Shown in pieces: positions 2,019 to 45,347 of a stretch of 45,347 bases of DNA. How positions within the stretch are numbered: the stretch's first letter is position 1; each line of letters starts with the position of its first letter. Position numbers and translations under genes: made by a program. The notes beneath the pieces were generated by a model. That model was not told the DNA's origin and did not search any database. It saw only the letters and a program-made list of their open reading frames with translations. This stretch comes from a virus, in the IMG/VR virus record IMGVR_UViG_3300006803_000028, positions 1-45,347 of that record; one strand, written 5' to 3'.

Positions 2019-2240
2019 TTAAAATATACCTTTATCTTTATTAATCTTTTTATAGCCCTTTACTTTAGGTTGAAACTTCTTTTTAGGTACTTCTGTAATA
2101 GAAAAATTAGTTTTTACATTAGTTAATTCTGATTTATTAAATGTAGAAAATAATTTTAATCTCTTATTACTATTTTCTAAATCTTTATAAAAGTCATCTA
2201 CTTCTTCACTCACAAAATTATTGTAATTTTTTAAACTCAT
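2019..2240 (-). CDS. Small protein with a possible capsid-targeting N-terminus
   Basis: I do not recognise this 73-residue protein as a family. It is very charged, with a Lys-rich second half and a Phe at its C-terminus. Its N-terminus, MSLKNYNNFVSEE, aligns with the capsid-targeting sequence of T4 internal proteins (MKTYQEFIAE) at K, Y, F, a V/I and the final E. It might therefore be packaged into the head, although VSE is not an ideal (I/L)XE protease site. It could equally be a small DNA-metabolism accessory protein, since it sits between the primase and uvsY genes. It overlaps the primase stop by one base and touches the uvsY start, so it is translated with them. The gene itself is well supported; its role is not. 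Confidence 0.65.
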   Translation of the reverse strand: MSLKNYNNFVSEEVDDFYKDLENSNKRLKLFSTFNKSELTNVKTNFSITEVPKKKFQPKVKGYKKINKDKGIF

Positions 2241-4779: not shown

Positions 4780-5439
4780 TTAATTGTTAGCCTTTAAGGC
4801 TTTAAGTATAAAGTAGGCATCAATGATGTCATCGATAGGTTTAGGTATTTTAATGCTGAAGTCTTTTCCTTGAGTCCATTTCCAAAGTTTAGTGCTCCTT
4901 AGGTTCTTATCTTTAAGGACATCATCTTGAAATGCTTTAGCCATGTAATGTTTATTTGCATTTCCTTTACCTGCTAACTTTTTTACATGAGATGGTTGAA
5001 ACACAGATAAATTTTCTATAGAGTACTTATCTATTAGTTCCTTTCTTAAAAATGTATTGTATTGAATGATATCTATAAATGAATTACCTTTAGATCCATA
5101 AGAAAATCCTTCTAGTGCAACCGATACTTTATCACCTTCAAACAGGGTTGAAAATATATTAACCATAAGTGAACTGATATTTCCGGCATCTTCTAATTTT
5201 TGCCTTTCTCTAGGTAAGAATTCTTTACTTGTAACTTCTCTATTATAAGGAAATCCTAATAATGCGTTATCATCCATTAATTCCTTATGTATACTAAATG
5301 CTTTAGGTATTTTTCTACCTTCATCATCCCATATTCTATTACCGTAATTAAAAAAAGTTATAAAGTGATATTTGCCATCAGCTGTTTCAACACAAGCACC
5401 TGGACTGTTTAATGAAAAGTCAATTCCTATATGAATCAT
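4780..5439 (-). CDS. RuvC-like Holliday-junction resolvase (RNase H fold)
   Basis: Probable junction-resolving endonuclease that trims branched DNA before packaging, the job done by endonuclease VII (gp49) in T4. The 219 residues begin with the RNase H-fold strand HIGIDFS, giving the first catalytic Asp (D7). SVALEGFSYGSKG supplies the second acidic residue (E110), and KPIDDIIDAYFI near the C-terminus supplies D203/D204 and D207, as in RuvC-type nucleases. Length is slightly above bacterial RuvC (about 170-190). It is the first gene of the replication/recombination group and follows the small internal-protein candidate by 5 bases. The fold is clear from motif order; junction specificity is inferred from RuvC relatives and context. 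Confidence 0.75.
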   Translation of the reverse strand: MIHIGIDFSLNSPGACVETADGKYHFITFFNYGNRIWDDEGRKIPKAFSIHKELMDDNALLGFPYNREVTSKEFLPRERQKLEDAGNISSLMVNIFSTLFEGDKVSVALEGFSYGSKGNSFIDIIQYNTFLRKELIDKYSIENLSVFQPSHVKKLAGKGNANKHYMAKAFQDDVLKDKNLRSTKLWKWTQGKDFSIKIPKPIDDIIDAYFILKALKANN

Positions 5440-5444
5440 TCTAA

Positions 5445-5801
5445 TTATATTCTCTTACCGATGACTGCACCTAATGCAGCACCAACAAGACGTGAGGTTA
5501 ATAAATCGTAAAGAGCACCCTTTGTAACTCCTAATACTTTAGCTACTGCTTTACCTATTGTCTTACCTAATGCAAAACCAGTAAGACCGCCAAATATACT
5601 TCCTAAAACACCTTCATTAATAATCTCCTCAACACAATCTTCTAAATTCTTTCCATTTTTTTGAGCTTCGATTATTCTATCTACTGTGGAATCTATTGCA
5701 TCTTCTTGCTCTTTTGATAAATCATGTGATTCATTCAATAGGTTTTGAACATCAACACTCTGATTATGAGATTCTTGTAAATAGTCTTTAAAGGTTTTCA
5801 T
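5445..5801 (-). CDS. Putative internal head protein with capsid-targeting peptide and glycine zipper
   Basis: No family name can be given with certainty, but the layout is telling. The N-terminus MKTFKDYLQE matches the capsid-targeting sequence of T4 internal proteins (MKTYQEFIAE) and ends in LQE, which fits the (I/L)XE cleavage site of the T4 prohead protease gp21. Further candidate sites are LNE (22-24) and INE followed by Gly (61-63). From residue 64 the protein is Gly/Ala-rich (GSIFGGLTGFALGKTIGKAV, and later VGAALGAVIG), typical of glycine-zipper membrane segments. I infer a protein packed in the head, matured by the protease, and perhaps injected to act at the host membrane. A strong TATATAA motif sits 18 bases before the ATG. 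Alternatives are a lysis-related or scaffold-core protein. Confidence 0.7.
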   Translation of the reverse strand: MKTFKDYLQESHNQSVDVQNLLNESHDLSKEQEDAIDSTVDRIIEAQKNGKNLEDCVEEIINEGVLGSIFGGLTGFALGKTIGKAVAKVLGVTKGALYDLLTSRLVGAALGAVIGKRI

Positions 5802-5817
5802 TTGTATACTTTATTTG

Positions 5818-5830
5818 TTTTATATATTAG
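5818..5830 (-). promoter_or_regulatory. Candidate late promoter before the internal-protein gene
   Basis: The minus strand reads CTAATATATAAAA. The TATATAA core ends 18 bases before the ATG at 5801 and overlaps the stop codon of the tail-tube-like gene. It is one of the best copies of the recurring motif. With a start site about 6-8 bases downstream of the core, the leader would be only about 10 nt. This is inferred from repetition, not measured. Confidence 0.5.
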
Positions 5831-6381
5831 ACCACATTAACAACAACATCTAAGATGTTATAACCAAAAGTAATATCAAAAGTTTGAAATTCAATAGTAT
5901 TACTTGAAAAATTTAAATCTAATGCGCCTACTTCAGAAATAAACATATCTTTTAATTGAACAGTTACAAATACAGTTCCATCAGCATCAAGCATTTGTAC
6001 ACCAACACCTTCTGGTAAATATGGATGCTTGCCACTTAATTTATAATAATAATCAAACATTTCTACTGCCATCCAATAATTTACATAACCATCAAATGCC
6101 TGCATTGTAACAGTCATAGTCTTATCAAACAATTGTTGCTTTGGTAAGCTAGCTCTAAATGCTCTTTGATTACCTGGATAATCTACTTGAGTAACAGCAT
6201 CAAATGAAGGGCCTGGTAAATTTAAAGATTGTATTCCATAATTCCAATAATCAATAGGTTCTTTAATTAGCCCACCAGGAATTCTAGTAAGAAAAGGTTT
6301 ATACTTTTTAGCAATTGGCTCAGGTATAAAATTTCTTGGAAAATCAAATTTAAATTGATTATTTCTTGCACTTAATATCAT
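5827..6381 (-). CDS. Tail-tube-like protein (gp19/gp54 type fold)
   Basis: Probably forms or caps the inner tail tube. The 184 residues show the pattern of contractile-tail tube proteins: an N-terminal arm, SLNLPGPSFDAV (about 52-63), a strand-helix unit KTMTVTMQAFDGYVNYWMAVEMF (split across about 87-109), and a closing beta pair around GALDLNFSSNTIEFQTFDIT (about 152-171). The ending FDITFGYN resembles the last strand of tube proteins, where F(D)hxFxYD is common. T4 gp19 has 163 residues. It sits at the end of the fibre region instead of beside a sheath gene, so it might be a specialised tube or baseplate-tube component. The ATG overlaps the upstream gene's stop by 4 bases (ATGA). The gene is certain; the role is moderately supported. 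Confidence 0.6.
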   Translation of the reverse strand: MILSARNNQFKFDFPRNFIPEPIAKKYKPFLTRIPGGLIKEPIDYWNYGIQSLNLPGPSFDAVTQVDYPGNQRAFRASLPKQQLFDKTMTVTMQAFDGYVNYWMAVEMFDYYYKLSGKHPYLPEGVGVQMLDADGTVFVTVQLKDMFISEVGALDLNFSSNTIEFQTFDITFGYNILDVVVNVV

Positions 6382-9735: not shown

Positions 9736-12495
9736 TTAATTTGGATAGCGACCTCCTAATAAAACTTCTTCAGAACCTGCACTATAGGATTTACTCAAGA
9801 CCCTCCATCCTGCTTGATATTCAACATAAGCACTGGTTGGTGGTGGCGGCGCTGGAAAATTGTTGAGATCACCGTTTCCATTAGCAATAAGCGTAGTAGT
9901 AGTACCATCCCATACCATATCAAATATTGCCTCAGCAACCTGAGCGTCATATCCTCTATTAGCGCTTACATTCACAGTCAGAGAATGATACCCTCTTTCA
10001 GCACTATTGAACATGCCAGCAGGATATAAATTTCCCCACCAACTTGTCCAATTTCCATTTCCTGAATTACCATTAGATTGTAAAGATCTTCTTCTAGCCT
10101 TAGGTATTAAAAGTTGAATATTACCATAAACCAATAATTGATTCGATCCACCACCTGGCCTAGCGGTGTTATATTGTGTACTAAAATGTCTTACTATTAA
10201 ACAAATTCTCTGTCCAGGATATGCACCTACTGGAAAACGGAATCCTCCTTGTGCTGCACCAATATTCCAATCAACCACCACTGGGCCGTTCGCAGAACCA
10301 GGCCTAGGCAAAATACCCATTGGGCTAGTTTCCGGTTGGTAAAGATCAGCAGCTGGTGCTGAAATAGCTAAAGGTGTTTGGTTTGTAGACGGGGCAAAAG
10401 TTATTTGAACTAAAGGTGGAGATTCTGCCAAGTCTGCTTGTGTTGGCATACCGGCAGTGTTCGTAGGAGAATTCTTTATTAGTGTATTAACACCATAAGT
10501 TGCTGAGTTTGCCTGATTATCAGGATCACCAGCAGACTTAGTAAGATGAGTAGCTGGGTTGTAATTCTGTGCTCCTAATTCTGAACCAATCTTTTGGCTT
10601 CTACCAAATACTAGTGGATTATTAAAAGATATTTTATTCCTACTAAAACTAAAATATTGATTTGATCCTCTTCCATAATTATCAATGCCTACATTTTGAG
10701 TTAAGCTTTCAAATGACTGAAGGCCTATTGTTCTGTTAAAAGCACCCGTTGGATAGCCTAGCGGTTGTAGTGCTCCAGGATCAAATGAGTTTATACCCGT
10801 AGCTTCATCGCCTATTCTTATGGACATTACACTAGCATCGCCTTGTGATGTTGATTGTGGTATAAAGTCATCTGCTCTAACCATCAGGCCAGGTACTGCA
10901 TTCTCTGTAGTAGTAAGGTCATATATACCTTCTAACATGGCTTTTAGATCGTTTGTCTTTTGTACGTTCTGTTGTGGCAATACTGAAGATTCTCCTTGTA
11001 ATGCCCACGTTTGTCTTCCTACAAACCTAGTATGCATTCTTGCAGCTCCACTACTATCTACAGATTTATAATCTAAAACAATACTCGGTCCTCTTTGAGT
11101 AATCGGTAAACCAACATTACCAGGTAAATTATCCAATCCTCTAAGAATTGTTTGTGTACCAGATTTTATATAGAGTTCTCCACCTGATCCTAATGAATTA
11201 GGTCTCTCTGATTTTTGTTCAATAATTACATTTTGTAAGAGTGTAGCAACAGCTCCTGTAGTTTGTAATATTATTGGCCCGTTTGTCGCTGTTCCAGTTA
11301 TTCCACCACTTGCAGCTGCCATTCTTATTTTACCTTGATCAATTGCATTATCAGCAATAAGGTTAATTTGTGAACCAGTTCGTAATGAAATATCATTATT
11401 ATCTCCTGCTCCAGCAAGTGGGGTAACTAAGTTTATTGTCTTTGCAATTAATTGTTGTTGGCCTGTGAACGTATTTACACCCGCCGAACTTGGAAGTAAT
11501 GGCGTAATTCCATTTCCTGATTCTATTATAGTTTTTCCAGCCAATCCTTGAGTAAGCATTTCAAATTTATTTCCTGCTGGTGATGCCGCACCACCTGAGC
11601 CTACGTTTATTTTAAAATCTCCACCACCAAAAGGTAATGCTGGTGATGAACCGCTTTCCATAATAATCTCGCCACCTGCATAAAAATACTGAGATCTATT
11701 TTGTGTTAATAACTCAAACCCATACATATCAGTAACGTTAGTCGCACCCGTGGCTGGAGTAGGAACATCTAAAATTAATCTATCTCGTTTACCAATCCTT
11801 ATATTAGTTAATATGGCCGGGTCTGTTTGTTCAAATCCATCATTAAACCCAGGTGTTACACCACCATGAAAAACAATAGCTCTACTATTAGAATTTCTTT
11901 GATGAATTAACATAGAAGTTTGATCTGAACCGTTTCCAACTATAATATCTTCTGGTACTATGTAAGCTGAAGTAAAAGGTATTGCATTAAAAGGTATTGT
12001 TTGTGATGTAACACCTGCTACCATAATTGCAGGTACACCTTCATTTGTTGTATTAGCACCGTTATTTAAACCTATCGGTCCATTATATAAAATATTTTCC
12101 TGATTAAAGATAGGCGCACCTGTGGCTAAACCAAAACCACCACTTATTCCTGCATCACCTTTAGGCCCTTGTAGGTCAATTGTTGTTATAACCCAGGTTG
12201 TCCCATTGTATTCCCAAACCTGTCCATTAAACTGTAAATAATAATCTCCTACTAGTGGGGTTGGTGTTGGGGGAGCAGTAAGAGGAGTTGCACCCGGCGA
12301 TGTTATTGAAGTATCTTCATACCATCTTGTACCTTTAGGTCCTCTACCACCAGCCGGCCCAGTAGGTCCTGGAATACCTTTAGGCCCAGCAGGCCCACCA
12401 CCATTTAGTAATATTTGGTCAAAATTAAAATTGGTCTTATCAACCAGTTGTGAAATAGTATCTGATGCTATTATTTCTTGTATAGTGATTGGCAT
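9736..12495 (-). CDS. Tail fibre protein with short collagen-like N-terminal segment
   Basis: A 919-residue fibre-type protein. Residues 1-30 form a head peptide (ITIQEIIASDTISQLVDKTN at 3-22, then FNFDQI). A Pro-rich collagen-like run with Gly every third residue follows (about 33-57, with GPKGIPGPTGPAG), and a second short Gly-X-Y patch (GPKGDAG) lies near 110-116. The long body is Gly/Asn/Thr-rich with beta-helix-like strands, and the C-terminal part (about 730-919) is aromatic and probably the receptor-facing domain. The head peptide is shared with the 219-residue protein encoded at 23274-23933, pointing to a common docking site on the virion. No chaperone-type peptidase triad is visible. 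It is followed by a small coiled-coil gene that may assist folding. Confidence 0.75.
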   Translation of the reverse strand: MPITIQEIIASDTISQLVDKTNFNFDQILLNGGGPAGPKGIPGPTGPAGGRGPKGTRWYEDTSITSPGATPLTAPPTPTPLVGDYYLQFNGQVWEYNGTTWVITTIDLQGPKGDAGISGGFGLATGAPIFNQENILYNGPIGLNNGANTTNEGVPAIMVAGVTSQTIPFNAIPFTSAYIVPEDIIVGNGSDQTSMLIHQRNSNSRAIVFHGGVTPGFNDGFEQTDPAILTNIRIGKRDRLILDVPTPATGATNVTDMYGFELLTQNRSQYFYAGGEIIMESGSSPALPFGGGDFKINVGSGGAASPAGNKFEMLTQGLAGKTIIESGNGITPLLPSSAGVNTFTGQQQLIAKTINLVTPLAGAGDNNDISLRTGSQINLIADNAIDQGKIRMAAASGGITGTATNGPIILQTTGAVATLLQNVIIEQKSERPNSLGSGGELYIKSGTQTILRGLDNLPGNVGLPITQRGPSIVLDYKSVDSSGAARMHTRFVGRQTWALQGESSVLPQQNVQKTNDLKAMLEGIYDLTTTENAVPGLMVRADDFIPQSTSQGDASVMSIRIGDEATGINSFDPGALQPLGYPTGAFNRTIGLQSFESLTQNVGIDNYGRGSNQYFSFSRNKISFNNPLVFGRSQKIGSELGAQNYNPATHLTKSAGDPDNQANSATYGVNTLIKNSPTNTAGMPTQADLAESPPLVQITFAPSTNQTPLAISAPAADLYQPETSPMGILPRPGSANGPVVVDWNIGAAQGGFRFPVGAYPGQRICLIVRHFSTQYNTARPGGGSNQLLVYGNIQLLIPKARRRSLQSNGNSGNGNWTSWWGNLYPAGMFNSAERGYHSLTVNVSANRGYDAQVAEAIFDMVWDGTTTTLIANGNGDLNNFPAPPPPTSAYVEYQAGWRVLSKSYSAGSEEVLLGGRYPN

Positions 12496-43135: not shown

Positions 43136-45347
43136 TTATACGATACAATATTCCATTCTCCATTTAATAGACCATGGGCCACTAACATCTAATGTAATTG
43201 GGTTCCCTCCAGTATCTTCTACTTCATAACTAAATCCTAATTTAAAGATATCGTTACGAGTCATAGTAAGTGGATCAGACTCTAGAGTAAAACTCCATGA
43301 ATATGCTCCTAATGGACCAGGAATAGTATTAGGTGCTATTTGATATGAAGTATTATCTATAATTGTAGCAGTAGGAGAAGTTGTTGGTGTAGCAAGTCCA
43401 GCAGTATTTGGTACAACATCAAATTTCTTTACTGATATTCTAACTCTACCTAAATAAGTAGGATTAGATACTTGATCCGACATCCAAGCCAATGCAGTTA
43501 CTCTTATAAAACCTCCAGTCAAATCCCCACCTGGTGTTGCTTGGCCATGAAACCCAGAATCTAAAACATCTTCCGTGTTAAAATTATCTGTTTGAGCCGT
43601 CTCCATTTGATAGTATACTTGAGTTGATGCATTAGGTGAACCCCAGTCAGGAACATTACCACCTACTGAATATTTACCATTACTTAGACCTCCACCATTC
43701 CAATCAGGTACGCTAGCCCTATATCCTGAAAATCTTTCTTGTAATAATGTTGATTGGCCAACTACTGCACCTTGTGAACCTTGCGGACCAGTTAAACCTT
43801 TATTACCATTTATACCCCAGCCAAATAAAGGTTTACTAAACGTAGTAATACCTGATCCTCCTATATAAGAACCTTTAGCTAATTCTATACCACCACCGGC
43901 TCCATTTGTAGTTGTAATATTAAAATATTCAAATTCATAATAATTTACTTTATGTGGATCACCATATTCCCAAACTCTAACAAAAGCTTTATTTTCAGAA
44001 GCTGTGACTGTTGAATTCCAGGTTGAGTATACTGTATTGTTATCCTGATAATCAATTGAATTACCAGTTTCAGGATCATTACCTTCAGCAGCTAAAAAGA
44101 ATGTTTGCGAACCTGTTACCCAATTAACTGCTGTGTTAATTGCTTTGTTAGCTTGGAATGCACCAGGCTGGGCAGCAGCAGCATTATTATATACTGTAAG
44201 ATATCCTCCGTAATCACCCGCAACACCGGTTGCACCAGTTGCTCCTAGTACTATACCAGTAGATCCTTGTTGACCAGTTAATCCTGTGGCTCCTTGTGTT
44301 CCTGTAGCTCCTTGTAATCCTATAGCACCTTGTTCTCCATTAGCACCTTGTCCACCAGTTGCACCTTGTAATCCTACAGCACCATCAGCACCAGTTGCGC
44401 CTTGTTTACCAATAGCACCCTGTTCACCGTCAGCACCTTGTGTTCCAGTTGCTCCTTGTTGGCCTATGGCACCACTTGCTCCTTGTCCACCTATGGCACC
44501 TGTTGCACCTTGTTGGCCTGTTAAACCTGTTGCTCCTTGTGTACCTGTTGCACCCTGTGTTCCTGTTGCTCCTTGTCCACCTATGGCACCTGTCGCACCT
44601 TGTTGGCCTGTTAAACCTGTTGCTCCTTGTGTACCTGTTGCACCTTGTGTACCTGTTGCACCTTGTTCACCAACTGCACCAGTTGCTCCTTGTTGACCTG
44701 TTAAACCTGTTGCTCCTTGTCCACCTATTGTACCAGTTGCTCCTTGTTGGCCTGTTAAACCTGTTGCTCCTTGATTACCTACAGCACCGCTTGCTCCTTG
44801 TCCACCTATTATACCAGTTGCTCCTTGTTGGCCAGTTACTCCAGTTGCACCTTGGATACCTACGGCTCCAGTTGCACCTTGTAATCCAGTGGATCCAAAC
44901 AGCCCATCGCTTCCAGGTTCTCCAGTTGCTCCTATTGTACCGCTTGCTCCCTGTTGACCAGTTGGACCTAGATCACCTGTAGCTCCTTGTTGACCAACTG
45001 CACCGGTTGCACCAGTGGATCCTGTAAGTCCACTTGCACCTTGTCCGCCTGTTGCACCTTGAGTTCCTGTTGCTCCCTGTAATCCTGGATCACCTTCTGA
45101 ACCTTGTGTACCTGTTGCACCTTGTGTACCTGTTGCACCTTGTGTACCTGTTGCACCAATACCTCCTTTTATTCCTGTCGAACCAATAAATCCAGTAGCT
45201 CCTTTAAAACCATCACCACCTTGAGTACCAGTAGCACCTTGTTGACCGATAGCACCAGTTGAACCTGTAAACCCAGTTGATCCCTGAGTACCTGTTGCTC
45301 CTTGTTGGCCTGTTAAACCTGTGGCTCCTTGGTTACCTACAGCTCCA
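43136..45347 (-). CDS. Collagen-like fibre protein, 5' end beyond the window
   Basis: At least 736 residues, open to the right edge. I read the frame codon by codon from the stop at 43136 to 45347 and found no internal stop. From the edge to about 44255, Gly occurs at every third residue without a break (about 121 triplets), of the type GATGxQGATG: rich in Thr, Ala and Gln and nearly free of Pro. One phase slip (GIVLG) lies near 44243-44257 before the collagen ends. The C-terminal ~360 residues are a globular, aromatic beta domain that may bind the receptor or trimerise the helix. A start at the internal ATG 43606 would cut off the repeats and is rejected. Likely a tail or capsid fibre. Confidence 0.85.
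44225..45347 (-). repeat. Collagen-like Gly-X-Y coding repeat
   Basis: A 9-bp periodic region (plus-strand TCC/ACC/GCC glycine complement every ninth base) with exact phase from 44255 to 45308 in all positions I checked. Glycine is coded by GGA, GGT and GGC in mixture, so DNA repeats are imperfect although the protein period is strict. Higher-order units of 18, 27 and 90 bp are visible. The antisense strand yields long Pro/Cys/Leu-rich frames that are by-products of this repeat. Confidence 0.92.
44481..44660 (-). repeat. 90-bp tandem duplication inside the collagen repeat
   Basis: Positions 44481-44570 and 44571-44660 are nearly identical 90-bp direct repeats (30 residues, ten Gly-X-Y triplets). 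They differ at a TGTTGC/TGTCGC site, a CACCC/CACCT site and at the last few bases. This high identity among otherwise diverged triplets points to a recent in-frame duplication that lengthened the fibre. Confidence 0.8.

Follow-up and report, generated by a model that had tools for sequence, protein, structure and literature searches.

A conserved candidate internal head protein with a glycine-zipper domain in marine T4-like phages

A 118-aa protein that begins like an internal head protein of phage T4 and ends in a glycine-spaced domain is encoded at positions 5445..5801 (minus strand, 118 codons plus TAA) of the window, by which we mean the whole 45-kb virus-record fragment analysed (45,347 nucleotides), and its gene is flanked by tail and recombination genes, not by head genes. 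The tail tube gene (5827..6381, minus strand; T4 gp19-like, phrog_45 tail tube, E 2.3e-8) comes first, followed by the 118-aa ORF and a RuvC-like gene on the other flank (4780-5439); all ORFs were called mechanically (60 aa or more) and are not annotated genes. Just upstream of the start codon, TATAAAACAAATAAAG (5809..5824, minus strand) may represent a promoter and/or translation element, and in the related contig G001, 41 of 183 genes have a TATAAA no more than 40 nt before them, compared to 9.5 expected. The phage is T4-like, its host probably belonging to the Bacteroidota. From our point of view, the best explanation of the locus, which we hold to be moderately likely, is a core internal head protein that would be cut and thereby release a DNA-entry peptide.

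A first scan of IMG/VR yielded 152 relatives; the 80 retained from these all showed the MKTF start, with 44 distinct 118-aa sequences among them. Because the N-terminus had been among the patterns of that scan, it was repeated with the tail tube as bait. Among the 138 relatives found in this way, the 118-aa gene stood beside the tail tube in 80/80 kept loci, all from a marine T4-like clade, and MKTF[KN]DYLxE was kept in 79 of them, the exception (L167) being truncated. A profile-type scan reached at least 474 relatives. As such, the gene belongs to the conserved content of this phage clade. Beside the tail tube of the more distant phages Tenacibaculum PTm1 and pT24 and Chryseobacterium MA9V-1, which have the same tail tube, and beside that of the very large phage records LR756501 and LR745206, no zipper gene was recognised, and a pattern scan of genome contigs gave 60 pattern matches and no relative.

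Constraint is unevenly distributed along the protein. Over the 44 distinct sequences, mean column entropy amounts to 0.15 bits for residues 1-10, 1.61 for 11-20, 0.19 for 21-25, 0.63 for 26-60, 0.18 for 61-64 and 0.23 for 65-118, and the corresponding pN/pS values, which are uncorrected with synonymous sites near saturation, are 0.068, 0.584, 0.069, 0.246, 0.069 and 0.194. Since both measures are lowest there, the tag and the predicted downstream sites at residues 24 and 63 are the most constrained parts, and residues 11-20 (5742..5771, minus strand) form a variable linker. Compared to the zipper, the remainder of the mature or middle protein is less conserved.

The original prediction had read residues 1-10, MKTFKDYLQE (5772..5801, minus strand), as a T4-type capsid-targeting sequence (CTS) ending in an (I/L)XE site, and this reading is supported by sequence: F4, Y7, L8 and E10 are invariant in 44/44 distinct sequences, whereas position 9, the X of the L/I-X-E motif, takes six residue types. 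In T4 IPIII, residues 4 and 7 matter most for targeting, and residues 8 and 10 for processing (PMC9026906). T4 ipII and ipIII both start with MKTYQEFIAE and ipI begins MKTFKEF; our pattern R2 found ipII and ipIII among 251 T4 ORFs (2/251, versus 2/2519 internal windows) and missed ipI and alt. Head packaging is well supported at the level of sequence, and we regard it as probable that the protein is targeted to the head.

Three (I/L/V)xE sites had been proposed as positions of prohead protease cleavage, and all three are present and conserved. Their glutamates lie at residue 10 (LQE|S), at 24 (LNE|S; residues 21-25, LLNE|S, 5727..5741, minus strand; N23 and E24 in 44/44) and, for INE|G, the main predicted site, at 63 (residues 61-64, 5610..5621, minus strand). 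At the latter, the zipper follows directly as foreseen, E63 and G64 being found in 44/44 sequences with position 61 restricted to [IV] and position 62 to [NS]. At a further match, IIE|A at residue 45, the next residue varies (A in 26, E in 17 and D in 1 of the 44). In total, the protein has four [LIV]xE[SAGN] sites, while 20,000 shuffles average 0.76 (P = 0.0042). The aligned N-terminal place in the capsid proteins reads LNE|S in G001 and LYE|N in the 462-kb phage LR756500, which suggests that the protease preference may be the same as for the 118-aa protein. A cut at INE|G is predicted, and we consider it likely. The part that would be removed is strongly acidic, residues 1-63 carrying a net charge of -10 to -15 in the 44 relatives, and in an alignment-based AlphaFold model of moderate confidence (mean pLDDT 65.8, superseding a single-sequence model at 58.8) it contains helices at 30-48 and 53-63, residues 26-60 (5622..5726, minus strand) being read as an acidic helical segment.

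Such processing calls for a gp21-like protease, for which a search of the genome had been suggested. Peptidase_S77 was found in one of 16 relative contigs, namely G001 (181,663 bases, E 6e-16; the other 15 span 44-84 kb), and in all three records searched of other lineages (LR756500 and the megaphages Lak-C1 and Lak-B5), but is absent from the window's own 45-kb fragment (0/1). In G001, the protease ORF (L086 18182-19903) joins the S77 domain and a scaffold-like part in which a unit of 14 residues is repeated. The motif [FYW]xx[YFH][LIV]xE occurs 27 times in all G001 ORFs together (56,395 aa) and nine of these matches fall within the protease ORF, eight of them (243 to 355) at a spacing of 14 or 28 residues; the corresponding LR756500 ORF holds 3 of 55. 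By eye, the repeat core YSEYLGEN resembles the tag FKDYLTEN, and we infer that the tag may imitate the scaffold repeat. These CTS-like repeats would also fit a role of the 118-aa protein in the prohead core, comparable to that of T4 gp67/gp68, with the protein serving head assembly and the zipper as a left-over or a core-packing helix; the same tag and protease sites would then be expected, and the acidic helical segment is reminiscent of core proteins. Yet the most conserved of the long domains lies past the last site, and its cationic, glycine-spaced design is kept across lineages, so that we consider a purely architectural role unlikely and favour the cut internal head protein whose mature part matters.

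This predicted mature part comprises residues 64-118 (5448..5612, minus strand), a cationic peptide of 55 residues and a charge of about +6 (+4 to +6 among the relatives for residues 64-118). The glycine zipper noted in the original prediction stands as a spacing: twelve glycines (64, 67, 71, 72, 75, 79, 83, 91, 95, 107, 111 and 115) are invariant in 44/44 distinct relatives, and five of them stand at a spacing of four (67-83), in the manner of GxxxG. As a family assignment it does not stand, because the Pfam families that share this spacing all score below their curated cut-offs (PF13488, Gly-zipper_Omp, 18.1 versus 25 bits; PF05433, 14.9 versus 24.2; PF13441, 9.8 versus 28.9), and "glycine zipper" is used here in the sense of spacing only. 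The best 19-residue Kyte-Doolittle mean is 1.45, borderline for a membrane helix and below the usual transmembrane threshold of 1.6; in the model, helix 65-90 has sufficient length to cross a membrane, with lysines inside. Fold and sequence searches against solved structures gave nothing useful (no fold match at E < 0.001), and among the phage records that tblastn listed up to E 10, none was of the T4 group. A match of residues 64-118 to phrog_22557 (E 5.3e-4) was set aside as uninformative, the family also matching 4/14 control genomes. The glycine-rich hydrophobic helices, together with weak holin-labelled rows among the non-significant viral fold matches, would fit a holin or another late membrane protein whose likeness to a CTS arose by chance. 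The four invariant CTS positions, the tags on other proteins and the co-occurring protease make this reading extremely improbable.

The zipper is not confined to the marine clade. With tblastn it was found in LR756500 at 47% identity (E 4e-24) and in 15 Lak records at 36-40%, and contigs L277 and L278 carry it too; the zipper-bearing very large phages are those of gut and marine bacteria. In these lineages the domain is preceded by EINEG, [IV]VDEG or ELNEG, that is [IVL][ND]E|G, and the pro-regions differ. The zipper matches that of L277 from the Gly after the predicted cut onwards (59% over 44 residues, BLASTP E 1e-11), whereas residues 1-63 of the window protein give no match to L277 (BLASTP E 38); the conserved module hence starts at the predicted cut. 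In LR756500 and in L277/L278 the zipper gene again adjoins the tail tube gene, and this constant place, shared with the marine clade, could point to a tail-tube or neck-associated entry protein outside the head. Such a location would leave the T4-type head tag and the prohead-protease sites unexplained, and no tail tube gene was recognised by eye beside the zipper homologue in the Lak-C1 stretch, which makes it very unlikely compared to a place inside the head.

For the head-borne protein, the following course can be imagined. By analogy with T4, residues 1-10 would attach to the prohead core as it grows and so bring the protein inside, where the acidic middle may hold the cationic, glycine-rich domain in solution and prevent it from acting while the head is assembled. 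A gp21-type protease would then cut after E10, E24 and E63 and leave the 55-residue peptide of about +6 with the packaged DNA. Upon infection, the peptide might be ejected and aid the DNA across the inner membrane by helix-helix packing, which is the weakest step; to a membrane or DNA-entry function of the predicted peptide we assign not quite an even chance. Against the explanation as a whole count the tail and recombination genes on either side, the protease seen in one of 16 relative contigs and not in the 45-kb fragment, the borderline hydropathy with lysines in the helix, the moderate model that has no significant fold match, and the more distant phages in which no such gene accompanies the tail tube. 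The original prediction, largely right on the sequence, had left the choice between host takeover, anti-defence and DNA entry. Given the conserved zipper, the gene in 80/80 anchored loci and a domain that reaches Lak, a core role in DNA entry fits better than an accessory one in host takeover or anti-defence, because the T4 internal proteins form a highly diverse set with only the CTS in common (PMC3012670). An injected factor like T4 IPI or Alt would reach the cell by the route that T4 IPI takes, which inhibits the gmrS/gmrD nuclease (PMC3012670). Arms-race proteins diverge, however, and here twelve glycines are invariant in 44 sequences, the zipper extends to Lak and the gene is present in all kept anchored loci, so that we regard such a factor as decidedly unlikely; the conservation of the zipper led us to rank lower an arms-race inhibitor as the mature part.

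Compared to known systems, the protein proposed here is closest to T4 IPI, IPII and IPIII, with which it shares the MKT[FY]xx[FY] tag, residues 4, 7, 8 and 10 as in IPIII, a predicted cut after (I/L)xE and a basic mature part. It differs from them in that its mature domain is highly conserved and glycine-spaced, and in that some 50 additional acidic residues, which hold two more sites, stand before this domain. An ejection candidate of the giant phage SPN3US, gp47, is similar in having a propeptide with several prohead-protease sites, a predicted membrane helix in the mature part and inferred ejection (PMC5694885), but both the protein and its propeptide are much larger and the sites are of the AxE type. 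In phage P1, an N-terminal signal likewise directs cargo, DarB, into the capsid, although P1 appears to do so without a separate scaffold and DarB is a 250-kDa anti-restriction protein (PMC9024508). Internal head proteins with a CTS are already known; the zipper, conserved and presumably masked, and the dialects of the tag in very large phages appear to be new variations on them. A literature search, for which subscription journals were mostly out of reach and which is hence weak evidence of absence, found no glycine-zipper ejection protein and, within the same reach, nothing that joins a capsid-targeting sequence with metagenomes.

A search for further tagged proteins had been suggested, and at the level of sequence similar N-terminal tags are found on many other proteins of these phages. 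In the window itself, a 73-aa protein (2019..2240, minus strand), encoded between primase-like and UvsY-like genes, has a similar tag (MSLKNYNNFVSE|E, the cut being predicted; start MSLKNYNNFVSEE) that is kept in its homologues in G001, G002, G003 and G005. Pattern R2 matches 5/203 N-termini in G001 versus 1/2845 internal windows; as the design of R1 and R2 followed the inspection of G001 and the window, the tag counts for both are post hoc, and a loose G001 list of 16 rows was drawn up without a control. The two patterns were then applied to LR756500, of which the 30-kb stretch L082 had already been read, and gave 27/634 N-termini versus 71/6772 internal windows for R1 (p 2.6e-8) and 10/634 versus 6/6772 for R2 (p 1e-7). 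A pattern derived de novo from LR756500, K#xxx#xx# (# = F/Y/W), occurs at 31/625 N-termini versus 5/2196 internal windows, far beyond chance. The best de novo p values for G001 (1.9e-9) and Lak (6.8e-12) were judged no stronger than T4's own (1.9e-10), and pattern strength at this T4 level reflects a general N-terminal bias.

Twenty-eight LR756500 proteins (L252-L275) start with MK[FYH][ILV]xx[YFH]xx[FY], and most of them share only this start, because 18 BLASTP clusters remain once the first 15 residues are removed. Three of ten of these proteins scanned against Pfam scored above the cut-offs, with matches to a putative metallopeptidase with a VWA-like domain, leucine-rich repeats and an ATP-grasp domain. 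One cluster of the set has eleven members, with leucine-rich repeats in the one member scanned. In Lak-C1 the form KALYExIM...INE|[NSA] occurs at 10/576 N-termini versus 0/2458 internal windows, a post hoc pattern of which one or two of the ten matches (150690, 513987) are unlike the rest, and this start is possibly a Lak-specific head tag. About eight Lak-C1 proteins (L284-L311) have a KALYExIM..SKxIKxxINE-like start and differ afterwards. Directly beyond the zipper gene of L277/L278, MKSLxxYLTE-like starts are found.

Taken further, one could speculate that large Bacteroidota phages mark many unrelated proteins with a genome-wide N-terminal address label, its dialect differing between lineages, and so have them loaded into the head and injected. 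The label of G001 looks like one unit of the 14-residue protease-scaffold repeat, and cargo would therefore join the core by imitating the scaffold; the cargo would include one old, shared zipper peptide that is released by the protease and aids DNA across the membrane. We put this forward tentatively, as somewhat more doubtful than the DNA-entry function itself. If true, it would provide a readable list of injected proteins for a widespread marine clade and for the Lak and LR756500 phages, offer one conserved peptide for studying how DNA crosses the membrane in T4-like phages, and suggest a testable rule for the entry of tags into the prohead core.

Several minor observations concern individual proteins. 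A tagged 442-aa protein of G002 (L096 11815-13143, minus strand) has a cytidylyltransferase-like domain (PF01467, E 7e-7) and is possibly a packaged enzyme. Related-looking proteins with GGxxGHxxHPF are encoded in G001 (L094 15985-17256) and LR756500 (267941-269206), the latter copy with a clear tag, MKFLKSYEEFLNEN, and the former with an EKTDGQN stretch that we take to resemble a nucleotidyltransferase/ligase motif. A copy of the capsid N-terminal arm followed by a lysine run is found in small proteins of G005 (4999-5124, minus strand), G002 (11513-11638, minus strand) and G003 (67717-67860, plus strand); the proteins have 131 aa in G002/G005, where the arm is 76% identical over 42 residues. 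At positions 43136-45347 (minus strand) of the window, a long collagen-like GATGxQG repeat probably belongs to a fibre protein. Finally, the 735-kb and 635-kb phage records (L318, L319) hold several MK[YK]... N-termini with FxE endings.
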